Positions 48,999-55,493 of a stretch of 64,000 bases of DNA are shown one piece after another. Position 1 is the stretch's first letter. Every line of letters starts with the position of its first letter. Origin of the DNA: Pseudomonas sp. MAG733B (GTDB taxonomy: Bacteria > Pseudomonadota > Gammaproteobacteria > Pseudomonadales > Pseudomonadaceae); assembly GCF_036884845.1 (NCBI RefSeq), contig NZ_CP145732.1:6076001-6140000 (forward strand), in the 5' to 3' direction. A program made the position numbers and the translations under genes. The notes under the pieces were generated by a model, which ran no database searches, was not told where the DNA came from, and saw only the letters and a list, made by a program, of their open reading frames with translations.

Positions 48999-49994
48999 AT
49001 GTCTAACCAAGCCTCCACGCCTTTGCGGCGCGTCAGCATCCTGGCCATCGACCGGGTTTTCGCATCCACCCTCATGCAAGCCAAGGATTTCTTCCACCTC
49101 GCCAGCCTGCGCTACGGCAAGCAGCTGGGCCAAGGCCTGACCCCGGCGTTCGAAACCCGCTTGGTCAGCCCCGATGGCAAACCGGTCAACACCTTCAGCG
49201 ACGTGATGATTCCGGTGGATGGCGGACTGGAAAATGCTGACATTATCGTGCTTCCAGCCTTCTGGGACGATTTCGATTCGCTGTGCAAACGTTATCCACA
49301 GGTCCTGCCCTGGCTGCGCCAGCAACACGCGCGCGGCGCGGTGCTGTGTGGCGAGGCCACGGGTGTGTTCTGGCTGGCCGAAGCCGGATTGCTCAACGGC
49401 AAGGAAGCGACCACTTACTGGCGCTTCTTCAACGCCTTCGCCGAACGCTTCCCACAGGTCCAGCTCAATCAGGACAAACACCTGACCGACGCCGACAACC
49501 TGTATTGCGCAGGCGGCACCACCTCGGCCTGTGATCTGTACATTTACCTGATCGAACGTTTCTGCGGGGCCAACGTATCCCAGGCTGTGGCGCGGGACAT
49601 TCTGTATGAAGTGCAACGCAGCTATTCGCCGGGACGAATCGGTTTTGGCGGACAGAAGCTGCACCAGGACGTGATCATCCTGCAGATCCAGCACTGGCTC
49701 GAAGAACATTTCGCCGACAAGTTCCGCTTCGAAGACGTCGCCCGCGAACACGGCATGAGCATCCGCAACTTCATGCGCCGCTTCCAGACCGCCACCGGCG
49801 ACAAGCCGCTGCATTACCTGCAACGCCTGCGCATCGAAACCGCCAAGGGCCTGTTGTCCGGCAGCCGCAAGAGCATCAAGACCATCAGCTACGAAGTCGG
49901 CTACGACGATGCCAGCTTCTTCGCACGGTTGTTCCGCCAGCACACGGAGCTGTCGCCGAACCAGTATCGGCAGCAGTTTCAACAAGCGGCGTAA
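48999..49994 (+). CDS. GATase1-like AraC-family transcriptional regulator (GlxA type)
   Basis: A 331-residue regulator. The DJ-1/PfpI-like N-terminal domain (about 10-185) includes GAVLCGEATGVFWLAEAGLL with the elbow-type Cys, and the AraC DNA-binding domain (about 225-325) ends in the signature KSIKTISYEVGYDDASFFAR. This subfamily includes CdhR, GbdR and ArgR, which control amino acid and quaternary-amine catabolism in Pseudomonas. It is divergent from the acyl-CoA dehydrogenase (146 bases) and precedes the amino-acid monooxygenase cluster on the same strand by 192 bases; either could be its target. The Shine-Dalgarno site is weak. Confidence 0.9.
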   Translation: MSNQASTPLRRVSILAIDRVFASTLMQAKDFFHLASLRYGKQLGQGLTPAFETRLVSPDGKPVNTFSDVMIPVDGGLENADIIVLPAFWDDFDSLCKRYPQVLPWLRQQHARGAVLCGEATGVFWLAEAGLLNGKEATTYWRFFNAFAERFPQVQLNQDKHLTDADNLYCAGGTTSACDLYIYLIERFCGANVSQAVARDILYEVQRSYSPGRIGFGGQKLHQDVIILQIQHWLEEHFADKFRFEDVAREHGMSIRNFMRRFQTATGDKPLHYLQRLRIETAKGLLSGSRKSIKTISYEVGYDDASFFARLFRQHTELSPNQYRQQFQQAA

Positions 49995-50004
49995 CAACTA
50001 AACC

Positions 50005-50032
50005 CAGTGGGAGCAGGCTCGCTCCCACTGGT
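50005..50032. repeat. REP-like hairpin after the AraC regulator
   Basis: A perfect 11-base stem ccagtgggagc / gctcccactgg with a 6-base loop starts 10 bases after the regulator stop. It resembles a half REP and may act as a weak terminator, though no T run follows. Confidence 0.7.
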
Positions 50033-50186: not shown

Positions 50187-52133
50187 GTGACTATCGGATC
50201 AAGCTACAACTACCCCTCATTCGTGGCCAAGGAAGCCACCCGCACAAAGCGCGCGGCTGAAAACAAATGGGCGGCCCGCTTTCCAAACCCACCCGACTTG
50301 TGCTTCGACTACCGGGCCTTGGTCGAGCAAAAAGACGGCATCGCCAAAGCAACCGACCCCAATCATAGAATCTGCATCATTGGCGCCGGCGTGACAGGCC
50401 TGACTGCCGCCAGAGAGCTCTACCGGTGCGGCTTTACCCAGATAACACTCATCGAACAATCCAGACGCGTCGGCGGCAGACACCTGACCGTTCCCGGAAG
50501 CCCCAACTCGGCAGCGAGCCATACACCGTTTGAAATGGGTGCCATGCGCATGCCGTTTTTCAACCGGGCGGATGAGCCGCCGACAGAAGGCCGGTCGCTG
50601 ATGGCTTACTACGCCCAAGCGTTTGACCTGGCACATTCGGATTTTGCCAACCCCGGAAGCCAGTGGGTCACCTCGACCGGGATCTACCTTCGTGAAGGCA
50701 GCCTGGGAGGCGGAGCAGCTCCGCAGATGCTGATATGGAAGAACGAAGACGGCTTGACCCCGCCTCCTGGCGAGGAACTGCACAAGGTCTATGCCAAATG
50801 GAAAGCCTTTGCCGATCAAATCACCCGCCAGGTTGCAGAAAGTTATGCCAGCCCGGAGTGGGAAGCCATATGGGCCGCCATCGTCGATAAATACCAGAGC
50901 GTTTCCTTTAGGGATCTGGTCAGCATGCCGGCCCTTCAAGCCTGGGATAAACGCGCCCCCGGGGATTTTGGCGGAATGGGCATGACCGCCGAGGAGTCGG
51001 CGATTTTCTACGCCATTGGTATCGGCGACGGCAGTTGGGGCGCCTTTTACGACGTGTGCTGCCTTTATCCCCTGCGTACGGCCATTTTTGGTTTCAGCAG
51101 CCAGTTGCAACTGATTCACGGCCGGGTAGATGCCAACGGTGATCCTCTGGCTTCACCCTACTTGCACAGTGAAGCTGTTTACGACTCGACAGGCCTGAGC
51201 TTCGACAGACCTCGCTACATCGGGCTCGCCGCACTGGACGAATGCCTGTTGTTCATGAACATCGATGAAACCGGAAAATCCGTCTACGAACACAGCCGTG
51301 AACGAAGCAATGGCCTGCTGACGGACTCATCCGTCACCCGACTCAAAAAGCTTACCAACCGGCAAACCCGCGTGTACTTCAATTGGAAACACAGCCTGCC
51401 CGAAGAAACCCAGGAGCACTTCGATGACTTTGACTCGGTCATCGTCACCCTTCCGTCCTGGCTGATCGAAACCCGAATCAGGCTCGAGGATTTCACCCAA
51501 GAGATGCTGCCATTCGAGACGATCAATGCCTGGAAAACGGCGCACTGGGAAACCAGTTGCAAGGTGTATGCGCCGTTGAAAAAGTCGTTCCTTTCGAACA
51601 ACACCAAAATCCCGCAAGCAATCGTCACCGACAGCTTCATCCATGACGTCTACACCTATCGCTACAACGACAATTACAGCTATGACTGCATCCTGCTGAG
51701 TTACACATGGGAGGATGACGCCACCAAACTCGCCGCATTCACCGACAAAGAACTGGTCAGCAAGTGCGTCAGGGAACTGGATCGCATCCTCATGAATTCT
51801 GCCAACGTCCAGCAGCGCATTTCGCCCTATGTCGGTGTCGATCAAGCCGTGGTCCAACGCTGGATAACCGATAAAAACGCCTTGGGTTGCGCAAAGCTTT
51901 ATCGGCCCGGCACGTATTACGACGCCGTCGGTTTGATGAAATACAACAGAGACTTTGGGCATGTTTCAGGTCTGTACTTTTCCGGCGAGTCGTTCTCGGT
52001 CGACGCCGGCTGGACGGAACCTTGTTTGCGGGGAGCCGTGGACGCTGTCATCCATATCTGCAACAAAACGGACGCCTCGTTCAATGGCGATTTTTCCATG
52101 ACCGATTACCCGCATTACCAAGTCAAACCCTGA
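50187..52133 (+). CDS. FAD-dependent amino-acid 2-monooxygenase/oxidase (amine oxidase fold)
   Basis: A 648-residue flavoprotein. The dinucleotide-binding motif ICIIGAGVTGLTAARELYR starts at 62, with the ribose-binding Glu90 and the VGGR box at 96. The early FAD contact EMGAMRMPF, the stretch SYTWEDDATKL (505-515) and the C-terminal FSGESFSVDAGWTEP follow. The SYTWEDD and GAMR elements resemble L-phenylalanine oxidase (P-501 type), lysine 2-monooxygenase DavB and tryptophan 2-monooxygenase IaaM as I remember them. Such enzymes convert an amino acid to the one-carbon-shorter amide plus CO2, or to the keto acid. About 60 residues precede the FAD motif, and no signal peptide is visible. It starts with GTG, with aggga upstream. 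The substrate is unknown. Confidence 0.8.
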   Translation: MTIGSSYNYPSFVAKEATRTKRAAENKWAARFPNPPDLCFDYRALVEQKDGIAKATDPNHRICIIGAGVTGLTAARELYRCGFTQITLIEQSRRVGGRHLTVPGSPNSAASHTPFEMGAMRMPFFNRADEPPTEGRSLMAYYAQAFDLAHSDFANPGSQWVTSTGIYLREGSLGGGAAPQMLIWKNEDGLTPPPGEELHKVYAKWKAFADQITRQVAESYASPEWEAIWAAIVDKYQSVSFRDLVSMPALQAWDKRAPGDFGGMGMTAEESAIFYAIGIGDGSWGAFYDVCCLYPLRTAIFGFSSQLQLIHGRVDANGDPLASPYLHSEAVYDSTGLSFDRPRYIGLAALDECLLFMNIDETGKSVYEHSRERSNGLLTDSSVTRLKKLTNRQTRVYFNWKHSLPEETQEHFDDFDSVIVTLPSWLIETRIRLEDFTQEMLPFETINAWKTAHWETSCKVYAPLKKSFLSNNTKIPQAIVTDSFIHDVYTYRYNDNYSYDCILLSYTWEDDATKLAAFTDKELVSKCVRELDRILMNSANVQQRISPYVGVDQAVVQRWITDKNALGCAKLYRPGTYYDAVGLMKYNRDFGHVSGLYFSGESFSVDAGWTEPCLRGAVDAVIHICNKTDASFNGDFSMTDYPHYQVKP

Positions 52134-52249
52134 TCCTGCTTCGGAGCCATGCACGCGATGTGCTGGCTCATCCTCCCCGCCCCGTTAATGCATCTTCGGA
52201 CAAGGACTACACCCGTACCGGAAGCGGCTGACTTCCGCCCGCTTGCTGT

Positions 52250-52283
52250 TTGACCTCTTATAAACACGCACTTAAACGGCGTG
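52250..52283 (+). promoter_or_regulatory. Possible promoter/operator before the amidase gene
   Basis: TTGACC (52250-52255) and TAAACG (52273-52278) are 17 bases apart, and an inverted repeat cacgc...gcgtg (52265-52283) overlaps the -10. The -10 is a weak match. The 178-base gap to the previous gene leaves room for an internal promoter. Confidence 0.3.
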
Positions 52284-52311
52284 AATAACAATAAAAAAGA
52301 GGTTATCGGGA

Positions 52312-53199
52312 ATGAGCAATCCAACCAGTCCTGTTCGTGTAGCAGTCGTGCAGTTCGATCCACAAGTCGGCATCGAGAATCGTGAAGGCAATCTGCGTCG
52401 AAGCCTGGAATTGGCTTTAGAGGCGGTAAACGGCGGTGCGAATCTCATCGTCCTGCCCGAGCTTTCCAACACAGGTTATTTCTTTAGCACCCGCCAGGAT
52501 GCCTTCGACCATTCGGAGTCAGTGCCCGATGGGCCAAGTGTGCAGACCTGGATGGATTTCGCGCGCCAGCACAAGGTTTACCTTGTCGCGGGTTTAGCCG
52601 AACGCGATGGCATGCGACTCTTCAACACCGGCGTTCTTTGCGGGCCTGACGGTTTTATCGGCAAGTATCGCAAAGCCCATTTGTGGAATCTGGAGAAACT
52701 CTGGTTCACACCGGGCGACCTGGGTTTTCCGGTTTTTGAAACGCCCATCGGCCGCATCGGATTGTTGATCTGCTGGGACATCTGGTTCCCGGAGGTGCCG
52801 CGCATCCTCAGCCAACAAGGCGCGGACATCATTTGCAGCCTGAACAACTGGGTCTGGACGCCACCGCCGCTGTTCGATGAGGCGGGCAAATGCATGGCGT
52901 CGTATCTGACGATGACCGCAGCTCACGTCAACAACGTGTTTATCGCCGCCGCCAGTCGTATCGGCGAAGAACGCGGCGCTCGCTACCTGGGCTGTTCCCT
53001 GATTGCCGGAACCAATGGCTGGCCAATAGGCAACGTGGCATCGGCGGACCAACAGGAAATCCTGTTTGCCGACATTGACCTGACCAGTTCCCGCAGCGCG
53101 CCAATCTGGAACAACCTGAACGACCTGCATCGCGATCGCCGAACAGATCTCTACGATCAAATGCTCGGCTGCATCCAACACGCTTGTCTCCCGCGTTGA
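52312..53199 (+). CDS. Nitrilase-superfamily carbon-nitrogen hydrolase (amidase)
   Basis: A 295-residue hydrolase with the full Glu-Lys-Cys triad: Glu50 in IVLPELSNTGYF, Lys121 in GKYRKAHLWN and Cys154 in LLICWDIWFPE. The N-terminal strand VRVAVVQFDPQVG is typical. Such enzymes hydrolyse amides, carbamoyl compounds or nitriles. Placed just after an amino-acid 2-monooxygenase-like gene, it is best read as the amidase that converts the amide product to a carboxylate and ammonia, as DavA does after DavB. GAGG lies about 13 bases before the ATG, so spacing is long. Closest subfamily could be DavA-like or N-carbamoyl-type; this cannot be decided by eye. Confidence 0.85.
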   Translation: MSNPTSPVRVAVVQFDPQVGIENREGNLRRSLELALEAVNGGANLIVLPELSNTGYFFSTRQDAFDHSESVPDGPSVQTWMDFARQHKVYLVAGLAERDGMRLFNTGVLCGPDGFIGKYRKAHLWNLEKLWFTPGDLGFPVFETPIGRIGLLICWDIWFPEVPRILSQQGADIICSLNNWVWTPPPLFDEAGKCMASYLTMTAAHVNNVFIAAASRIGEERGARYLGCSLIAGTNGWPIGNVASADQQEILFADIDLTSSRSAPIWNNLNDLHRDRRTDLYDQMLGCIQHACLPR

Positions 53200-53218
53200 T
53201 GAAGGGGGGACCTGACTG

Positions 53219-54421
53219 ATGGAAATCACAACCGACAAAAAACCGCTGACCCGAAGTTCTCCTTTTGATCTGGCGGTCATCATGCTGCTGATCGGAATCG
53301 CTGTGCTGGCTGTCTGGCTTTCATTTTCCTACCGTTCCTTGTGGTCTGCTCACTGGCCGAGCTACAGCGACATGGTGTCCTCGCTGCCCGAGCCGATCGC
53401 ATGGCTGCGCTGGGTTGTGGGCGACATCAGCGAAGTGGCGTTCTACAAACACGAGTTCGCTTCAATTGGGCTGCTAGCAGGCGCCTACCTCGCCTACTGG
53501 GCAAATCGAACGGGGAAATCCTGGCAAGGTTTTGCCATTTCCTATGGAACGGGGCTTTGGCCGTGGCTGGTCACCAGTTCATTGCTCGGGTTGTTGCTGA
53601 GTAACCTGCTATGGGGCTGGACGGTGAACGCCAATGACTGGCAACCCACATTCGCCGCGTTTGTATCGCTACCTGCGGCGATGGTGCTGATGTTTGGCGG
53701 CGGCTGGAAAGTTGCGATCAACGGCGCAATCCTGGGCGCTGCACTCGTCACGCCCATGTGCCTGCTGATCGTCAACTACGTATGCAACCCGTTGGTCTTG
53801 CCCGCAGTGATCGGCAACGTGCTGGGCATGGCGATTGCCAGCGTCCTGGCGTTTCTGCTCTGTCGATATTGGCCAGCGCTGATGAAGTCCGAGCAACCCG
53901 AGATACCAGCCCTCACGACCGTAGCGCACGTCACCAAAAAGGCACCGGACTACGGCGTGATCTGGAGTTTGCGCCGGGTACTGGCGGACTTTTCCGAAGC
54001 GCCGTTCTTCGGCAATGAGCTGGCCAGCCTTGGCCTGCTGGCAGGCGCATTGCTGGCGTACAGCTTGAACCCCATGAGCCCCGCGTATGGATCGGGCCTG
54101 CTGCCGCACATCATTGCCGGCCAGGCTCTGACGTCGGCCATCGGGGTGCTGGTCTGGCGCCGACAGTGGATGTTGCTCGGCTGGTATCCGACTTACGTGC
54201 CATTGGTGTCAGTGGTTCCTGCGGCGATTCTGGCCTACGGCGGCAGTTGGCAGGTGATCGTTTCCAGCGCCCTGCTGGGGGCACTTGTTGCGCCGCCTCT
54301 GGCGTGTGCACTGTCCAGACGATTACCGGCCGACATGCACGCCTACATTGGCAATGTGCTGTCCATGGCTATCAGCACGCTGCTGATCGTTTCACTGATC
54401 GGCTATCTGATCGCGGATTAA
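53219..54421 (+). CDS. Uncharacterised membrane protein with internal duplication
   Basis: A 400-residue protein with a short cytoplasmic N-terminus, one leading helix (18-37) and two homologous membrane units, ~63-217 and ~253-397. Matching pieces are SEVAFYKHEFASIGLLAGAY (71-90) with SEAPFFGNELASLGLLAGAL (259-278), WQPT...GGGWKVAINGAILGAAL (141-177) with WYPT...GGSWQVIVSSALLGALV (322-357), and IGNVLGMAI (198-206) with IGNVLSMAI (377-385). Each unit has about four to five helices, separated by a soluble Pro/Lys-rich linker (219-250). Such duplication suggests a pseudo-symmetric transporter. I do not recognise the family. aaggggggac precedes the ATG, 19 bases after the amidase stop, so the two are co-transcribed. 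Confidence 0.8.
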   Translation: MEITTDKKPLTRSSPFDLAVIMLLIGIAVLAVWLSFSYRSLWSAHWPSYSDMVSSLPEPIAWLRWVVGDISEVAFYKHEFASIGLLAGAYLAYWANRTGKSWQGFAISYGTGLWPWLVTSSLLGLLLSNLLWGWTVNANDWQPTFAAFVSLPAAMVLMFGGGWKVAINGAILGAALVTPMCLLIVNYVCNPLVLPAVIGNVLGMAIASVLAFLLCRYWPALMKSEQPEIPALTTVAHVTKKAPDYGVIWSLRRVLADFSEAPFFGNELASLGLLAGALLAYSLNPMSPAYGSGLLPHIIAGQALTSAIGVLVWRRQWMLLGWYPTYVPLVSVVPAAILAYGGSWQVIVSSALLGALVAPPLACALSRRLPADMHAYIGNVLSMAISTLLIVSLIGYLIAD

Positions 54422-54497
54422 CGCCCCAGCCATTTGGCTGTATCACGGCCAGAAACCGGGTACAGCCACTTTTCATGACAAACAATCGAGGTATGAC

Positions 54498-55493
54498 ATG
54501 GACCTGCCCAAACTGGCCATCGCAGCGCTCGGCGGTACGGTAAGCATGCAAGCAAGAAATGCCGGTGAAGGCGTTATTCCGACCGTCAGCGGCGAAACCC
54601 TGTTGGCCTCCCTTCCGGAACTGTCGACGCAGGCCCGAGTGACCGTTGAGACGCTCGGCCTGCTACCCAGCGCCTCGCTGGATTTCGAGTTTTTGCTGAG
54701 CGTCTTGTCCTGGGCGAGTTTTCAGGTAAAACAAGGCGCCGCGGGTGTCGTGATCACCCAAGGCACCGACACCCTCGAAGAGACGGCGATGTTTTTCGAA
54801 TACCTGTGGCCCCACGACACGCCACTGGTATTGACTGGCGCCATGCGTTCGGCAGCACAGCCAGGCGCCGACGGACCAGCGAATTTGCTGGATGCGTGCC
54901 GCGTTGCCCTGGCTGACGGCAGCCGGCAGCGCGGTGTTCAGGTAGTGATGAACGGGCAGATTCATCAAGCATCCAGCGTGCGCAAAACCGATTCGCTCGC
55001 GTTGCAGGCATTTTCCTCTCCGGTCACCGGACCCGTTGGCCTGTTGATGGAGGACCGCGTTTGTTACCTGCACCCTCCGGTGCAGCGTAAGGTTTTGCTC
55101 CTGCCGCAACAGACCACTCAGAAGGTCGCAATGCTCGAGGCATCGCTTTCGGCAGACACCCTGCTGCTGGAGAACATCCTCGCGCTCGGCTACGACGGGC
55201 TGGTGATCGCCGGTTTCGGTGCCGGTCACGTCTCGCAGCGCTGGGCGACGATTATTGAGCGCATCGCCGAAAAAATCCCGGTGATCATTGCGACCCGCAC
55301 CGGCTCGGGTTCCACCGCGCAAGCCACTTATGGCTTTGACGGCAGCGAGATGGACCTGATCCGCAAAGGTGCCTTGATGGCTGGATTTCTTTGTCCGCGC
55401 AAAGCCAGGATTTTTCTGTGGCTGCTGATTGGCTGTCAGCGACAGCATGAGCTGTCGCACTATCTCAATGACGATAGCGGCCTTAAAAATTGA
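54498..55493 (+). CDS. Asparaginase-family amidohydrolase, cytoplasmic
   Basis: A 331-residue member of the bacterial asparaginase/glutaminase family. The first catalytic Thr14 is in LGGTVSM, the second pair Thr90-Asp91 in VVITQGTDTLEET, and the third conserved block is VLTGAMRSAAQPGADGPANL. No signal peptide is visible, so it resembles cytoplasmic type I enzymes or relatives with altered specificity. It follows the duplicated membrane protein by 76 bases, with GAGG 6 bases before the ATG, and is followed by a terminator. In this setting it may deamidate a pathway intermediate rather than act as a housekeeping asparaginase; this is inference. Confidence 0.88.
   Translation: MDLPKLAIAALGGTVSMQARNAGEGVIPTVSGETLLASLPELSTQARVTVETLGLLPSASLDFEFLLSVLSWASFQVKQGAAGVVITQGTDTLEETAMFFEYLWPHDTPLVLTGAMRSAAQPGADGPANLLDACRVALADGSRQRGVQVVMNGQIHQASSVRKTDSLALQAFSSPVTGPVGLLMEDRVCYLHPPVQRKVLLLPQQTTQKVAMLEASLSADTLLLENILALGYDGLVIAGFGAGHVSQRWATIIERIAEKIPVIIATRTGSGSTAQATYGFDGSEMDLIRKGALMAGFLCPRKARIFLWLLIGCQRQHELSHYLNDDSGLKN

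Follow-up and report, generated by a model that had tools for sequence, protein, structure and literature searches.

A conserved Pseudomonas gene set joining a flavin amino-acid monooxygenase-like enzyme and two putative amide hydrolases to a membrane protein of predicted urea-transporter fold

Four genes form a linked set in Pseudomonas

We analysed a 64,000-nucleotide stretch of the genome of Pseudomonas sp. MAG733B (NZ_CP145732.1, positions 6,076,001 to 6,140,000; hereafter the window) and found that it carries a conserved set of four genes that, on balance, probably encodes an amino-acid to amide to acid module with its own small-amide channel. The genes encode an FAD-dependent L-amino-acid 2-monooxygenase/oxidase-like enzyme (FMO; 50187..52133; 648 residues, GTG start), a nitrilase-superfamily C-N hydrolase (NIT; 52312..53199; 295 residues), a duplicated membrane protein with a predicted urea-transporter fold (MP; 53219..54421; 400 residues) and an asparaginase-family amidohydrolase (ASN; 54498..55493; 331 residues). 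The original prediction, made from the letters of the window, had named four same-strand genes for an FAD amino-acid 2-monooxygenase-like enzyme, a nitrilase-fold amidase with an intact Glu-Lys-Cys triad, a duplicated membrane protein outside the families known to its reader and a signal-less asparaginase-family protein. It had inferred a route parallel to DavB/DavA (lysine) and IaaM/IaaH (tryptophan) for another amino acid or amino-acid-like compound. All four open reading frames are present, on the + strand, and each of the gene descriptions is borne out by the comparisons below.

To measure linkage, each of the four proteins was searched in one set of 149 Pseudomonas genomes. MP is present in 49 of them (split in G037 and G046), NIT in 54 (counted to E 1e-90 only) and ASN in 35 (to E 1e-70 only). 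FMO is present near full length in 35, a count drawn among the matches listed at an identity of at least 57%; lower matches were taken as DavB-like or other oxidases and left out, and 8 further genomes with split or partial FMO were tallied apart. The MP count excludes a weak match in G109 (E 3.4e-4), the additional copy that G023 carries and, for the split genes of G037 and G046, the second piece of each. The four distributions are strictly nested, with 35/35 FMO genomes and 35/35 ASN genomes falling within the 49 MP genomes, and 49/49 MP genomes within the 54 NIT genomes (hypergeometric p 5e-23 each, uncorrected for kinship of the genomes). Linkage is thus far beyond what chance neighbours would give, and we rejected that explanation. 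A single internal stop interrupts 2 of the 35 FMO genes (G037, G121) and 3 of the 35 ASN genes (G037, G086, G102).

The order FMO-NIT-MP-ASN is kept in 24 of the 49 MP genomes; NIT-MP-ASN occurs in 8, FMO-NIT-MP in 8, NIT-MP in 6 and MP-FMO-NIT-ASN in 2, with one genome split by a contig end and FMO pieces uncounted. All four genes cluster on one contig in 26 of the 49, plus one cut by a contig end. The finding that would have refuted the original prediction, no conserved neighbourhood in any other genome, is thus contradicted. FMO is absent or broken in 14 of the 49 (7 not found, 7 in pieces) and ASN absent in 14. The order is rearranged in G051 and G086, in the latter with 3.5 kb between MP and FMO. 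Because the genes stay near each other in these two genomes despite the change of order, and because flanks differ among sites, selection appears to act on the set. Among 96 loci, a ZapE-type gene lies downstream in 57 and an AraC-type gene upstream in 48. Elsewhere the flanks, named by eye, are FKBP-like and lipoprotein genes, a formate-dehydrogenase-like gene, or an acetolactate-synthase-like gene together with a UPF0149-like gene, besides some flanks met only once.

NIT and MP frequently remain where FMO is gone, and 14 of the 49 genomes lack ASN, so the core of the set is NIT-MP and not the oxidase. The pattern suggests that FMO has been lost or broken repeatedly. Among the best 80 of 156 loci, collected through MP, all named relatives are Pseudomonas and the FMO frame reaches at least 90% of its length in 53; the locus comparison leaves out parts of L137-L140. 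FMO is cut or in pieces, with NIT and MP present, at L065, L070, L077, L089, L094, L096 and L102, and the same decay with NIT and MP kept was observed in G122, G102, G076, G085, G057, G081 and G067. G024 has FMO pieces and an ASN piece and no MP.

All four genes are under purifying selection. Median dN/dS between the window and relatives is 0.081 for FMO (46/60 pairs unsaturated), 0.061 for NIT (87/94), 0.143 for MP (86/86) and 0.12 for ASN (63/63). MP was found in 1 of 369 genomes of a class sample (the source genome), in 2 of 388 of a phylum sample (both Pseudomonas) and in 13 of 248 of a family sample, one of these in another genus that also carries FMO (L185). Within these samples the set seems confined to Pseudomonadaceae. 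A protein search with MP gave 1082 matches, of which the best 120 are listed and have no bearing on range.

FMO groups with the amino-acid 2-monooxygenase/oxidase branch of flavin amine oxidases

FMO matches PF01593, and its start (MTIGSSYNYP) fits the consensus of a 49-sequence alignment. Its nearest solved sequence is TMO and its nearest folds are L-AAO/MOG and TMO, with fold-comparison Z values of 21.9 for monooxygenases and 19.9 for amino-acid oxidases. By nearest sequence and fold it groups with the L-AAO/MOG, TMO and PAO branch of flavin amine oxidases, and the residues of that branch (the carboxylate Arg, the flavin Lys, Tyr/Trp and the cage Trp) are present. Arg121, Lys459, Tyr506, Trp508 and Trp609 are invariant in all 61 FMO sequences; we take Lys459 to serve as the flavin Lys.

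Arg121 (50547..50549, + strand) aligns with Arg102 of L-AAO/MOG, which is reported to bind the substrate carboxylate (PMC5832979). Two other positions, both invariant in 61/61 sequences and both in low-confidence parts of the model, differ from that enzyme. Trp284-Gly-Ala-Phe287 (51036..51047, + strand) aligns with the side-chain specificity site Trp235...Asp238, placing Phe287 at the Asp238 position; in L-AAO/MOG the D238F exchange reportedly confers activity towards Leu, Met and Phe (PMC5832979). Ala569 (51891..51893, + strand) aligns with Phe473, an aromatic-cage residue of L-AAO/MOG, and with TMO Phe476 (a number counted from the alignment), so that, by alignment only, the second cage aromatic is missing from FMO. 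An active-site reading from the FMO model was tried and proved unproductive (pLDDT 62, below 50 at residues 276-311 and 561-577). We also considered VioA as an identity for FMO and rejected it (NCBIfam NF053546, 19.7 bits against a 600-bit cut-off).

MP has a likely urea-transporter-type fold

MP has no Pfam or NCBIfam match at E 0.001. Its halves (residues 57-222 and 245-400) match each other as profiles (hhalign E 9e-24, 39% identity over 141 columns), which establishes the duplication. In the model, of middling confidence, each half comprises one short helix and five further helices. Foldseek placed the urea-transporter (UT) fold far ahead of the next fold, with one match only under E 0.001, and in fold comparison the gap between UT and Rh was about 10 Z units. 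A UT is described as containing two pore helices besides ten that span the membrane (PMC10541013), and the MP model likewise has two repeats, each with a presumed pore helix and five transmembrane helices. MP thus likely has a urea-transporter-type fold.

The short helix of each half, a helix in the model, is taken as the pore helix. In half 1 it spans residues 59-75 (53393..53443, + strand) with the motif GDISEVAF and Glu72; in half 2 it spans residues 247-263 (53957..54007, + strand) with ADFSEAPF and Glu260. Both glutamates are kept in 87/87 sequences. Early in their first half, Pseudomonas UTs carry a G-x-S/A-Q-V/I motif. Glu72 and Glu260 were tentatively paired, by motif and position only, with the Gln/Glu residues of the UT pore helices. 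The scanned Pseudomonas UTs have Gln/Gln or Gln then Glu at these sites, whereas MP has Glu in both short helices, as well as an extra N-terminal helix.

Some database names call MP a threonine/serine exporter. We rejected this identity; the ThrE match has E 0.0025, its 17.7 bits falling short of the 26.3-bit cut-off, and among four MPs scanned it is confined to the window protein. The second MP copy of G023 (L131:5967-7148) is 50% identical and lies about 6 kb before FMO, with no NIT beside it; LysR, DUF969 and DUF979 genes directly precede FMO in that genome.

NIT and ASN are predicted amide hydrolases

NIT matches PF00795 with 181.5 bits against a cut-off of 23.2. Its nearest solved sequence is the nitrilase 3ivz (E 1e-59), with N-carbamoyl amidases further off, among the best 60 of 63 matches. 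Counting the window protein, Glu50 and Lys121 of the triad are kept in 95/95 sequences and Cys154 in 93/95. The family names of its nearest relatives do not fix its substrate, and AguB (N-carbamoylputrescine amidase) was rejected as its identity (TIGR03381, 153.6 bits against a cut-off of 410). NIT relatives 66-83% identical also occur in G017, G091, G139, G140 and G142, genomes in which the searches detected no MP, no near-full-length FMO and no ASN.

ASN matches PF00710 and PF17763, and its nearest solved sequence is 9d91 (E 7e-40; best 60 of 89 matches). Like 9d91 and the type II asparaginases, it has both domains and keeps Thr14, Thr90, Asp91 and Lys163 (64/64), presumably the catalytic Thr, Thr-Asp and Lys. 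Unlike type II asparaginases, it begins directly with the catalytic domain, with no signal peptide seen by eye, and its score of 189 bits falls below the 314 bits required for type II. Ala59 replaces the substrate Gln in 64/64 sequences, and no Tyr occurs at residues 24-30 of the flexible loop, where alignment is uncertain; in the type II enzymes this Gln and Tyr help to surround asparagine. Judged by its residues, ASN looks catalytic and its substrate may well differ from asparagine. The source genome has two further asparaginase-family genes.

The set differs from known amide-forming and amide-using systems

Plain orthology with DavB, the L-lysine 2-monooxygenase, and DavA, the 5-aminovaleramidase, was considered and rejected. 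The source genome (one contig of 6,652,015 bases) carries, about 510 kb on, an amine oxidase gene (L147:3961-5643) adjoining a C-N hydrolase gene (L147:5656-6450). We take this pair as DavB/DavA-type because its oxidase matches L-AAO/MOG, the L-lysine oxidase/monooxygenase solved from Pseudomonas sp. AIU 813 (3we0), with 1220 bits over 559 residues. FMO is only 24% identical to that oxidase over 525 columns (hhalign; 21% over 284 residues by blastp), and NIT is 33% identical to its neighbour. Like DavB/DavA, the cluster sets a flavin 2-monooxygenase-type enzyme beside a nitrilase-superfamily hydrolase, and FMO shares with L-AAO/MOG the fold and the substrate-binding Arg, Tyr and Trp. Unlike them, FMO has Phe287 for Asp238, the residue that serves the side-chain ammonium, and Ala569 for the cage Phe473, and the cluster adds a channel-like protein and an asparaginase-family gene. 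We know of no channel in the DavBA or IaaM/IaaH pairs.

The P. aeruginosa amidase operon also pairs an amidase with a small-amide channel, of AmiS/UreI type, as the cluster is predicted to do. The channel fold and the amidase branch differ from those of the cluster, in which FMO may in addition make the amide from an amino acid. MP differs from UT/SLC14 proteins (PF03253), which it resembles in the predicted arrangement of a short helix and five helices per repeat, in having no detectable sequence match to PF03253 and in being linked with amide hydrolases and with an enzyme that resembles amino-acid oxidases. Each enzyme of the set adds a member to a family already described; what is new is their combination with a protein of predicted UT fold as a fixed partner. 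No description of the four-gene set was found in the accessible parts of the open-licence literature.

A candidate pathway and its alternatives

In the pathway that we favour, FMO would hold a non-basic L-amino acid by its carboxylate, using Arg121, as the family and residues of the enzyme suggest. With FAD and O2 it would decarboxylate the amino acid oxidatively to an amide one carbon shorter and CO2, possibly with a keto acid as side product, as in L-AAO/MOG. NIT would hydrolyse the amide to the acid and ammonia, and ASN could act on a second amide or on one related to the first, such as a diamide, an amic acid or an amide that NIT does not take. MP, to judge from its fold, may pass the small amide, or urea, across the inner membrane, and NIT and MP could work without FMO, presumably on externally acquired amides. 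If the predictions are right, one chemical theme unites the set: an enzyme that makes an amide, two that hydrolyse amides and a channel of urea type.

Several points weigh against this pathway. Its biochemical side draws on sequence, linkage and predicted fold. Monooxygenases lead amino-acid oxidases by only a small Z difference (21.9 versus 19.9), and sequence alone cannot separate an oxidase from a monooxygenase for FMO; because model confidence at the active site is low, the residue mapping depends on alignments of 21-24% identity. The kinship of MP with UTs comes only from the predicted fold, with one Foldseek match under E 0.001 and a model of middling confidence. PF03253 does not match MP, MP is absent among the PF03253 match sites, its alignment profile retrieves nothing from the PDB sequences even at E 10, and hhalign against Pseudomonas UTs is not significant (at most 23% probability at full length; at most 67% for the halves, out of register). 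Of the 49 MP genomes, 14 have no near-full-length FMO and 14 have no ASN.

The strongest rival takes NIT and MP, with or without ASN, as a scavenging module in which MP admits small amides (or compounds resembling urea) of plant or soil origin and the two hydrolases set ammonia free, FMO being an accessory that feeds the amide pool in some strains. All 49 MP genomes also carry NIT, FMO is broken into pieces in 7 of them and was not found in another 7, and NIT-MP without FMO occurs at several sites, as this explanation would have it. However, the order FMO-NIT-MP-ASN is kept in 24 of the 49 and no near-full-length FMO occurs without NIT-MP in the 149 genomes, which ties FMO to the module, and we regard the scavenging module as rather unlikely. 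It is less plausible still that FMO acts mainly as an L-amino-acid oxidase yielding keto acid, ammonia and H2O2, with MP, as a member of the UT/Rh fold group, moving ammonia and the hydrolases as further ammonia sources. The top sequence and fold matches of FMO are monooxygenases, the UT fold leads Rh by the wide gap given above, and a pair of amide hydrolases would make no sense unless the cell produces or imports an amide.

TMO being the best solved sequence for FMO, and some database records naming FMO relatives 'tryptophan 2-monooxygenase', the cluster could also be read as an indole-3-acetamide auxin route of IaaM/IaaH type. IaaH is an amidase-signature enzyme, whereas NIT belongs to the nitrilase superfamily; the FMO pocket differs from that of TMO (Trp284 for Phe244, Phe287 for Val247, Ala569 for Phe476); the cluster has a membrane protein and a second hydrolase besides; and a urea-type pore would suit small amides and not an indole amide. 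We consider this route highly improbable. Two reports assign iaaM-like Pseudomonas genes, which may or may not correspond to FMO, to an auxin route (PMC8515041; PMC3596284).

The amino-acid to amide to acid pathway thus remains our preferred reading. The earlier proposal of a parallel route for another amino acid or amino-acid-like compound is partly borne out: it gains from the distinctness from DavB/DavA, the linkage of the genes and the likely UT-type fold of MP, and needs amending in that the core is NIT-MP rather than the oxidase. The dedicated transporter of that proposal now has a likely identity, as a protein of UT-type fold. A bolder version, which we put forward only tentatively, is that MP founds a UT-fold family outside PF03253 that conducts small carboxamides, and that the cluster encodes a catabolic (or signalling) route for an amino acid that has yet to be described: the cell would form an amide internally, share or import it by way of MP and hydrolyse it with two unrelated amidases, NIT-MP being the UT-fold counterpart of the amidase/AmiS pair. 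To our knowledge, oxidative decarboxylation to amides is established for few amino acids. If the favoured pathway is correct, this conserved Pseudomonas set adds a pathway and a candidate channel for amides, and the name tryptophan 2-monooxygenase that such genes now bear likely needs correcting.

Surrounding DNA

An AraC-type regulator gene with a DJ-1/PfpI domain (48999-49994) lies directly upstream of FMO. We rejected it as a dedicated regulator, since its place among its neighbours does not depend on FMO and it is not seen beside the cluster at the other sites; it is probably not part of the set. A scan for promoters and terminators came out near chance (promoters 1 versus 2.0 expected, terminators 9 versus 6.0 expected). 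Between the AraC-type gene and FMO lies an inverted repeat of 12 pairs (50004-50031), terminator-like on the - strand. At another locus (L188:5149-8190), gabD- and gabT-like genes, named by eye, lie on the opposite strand beside MP with an FMO piece.

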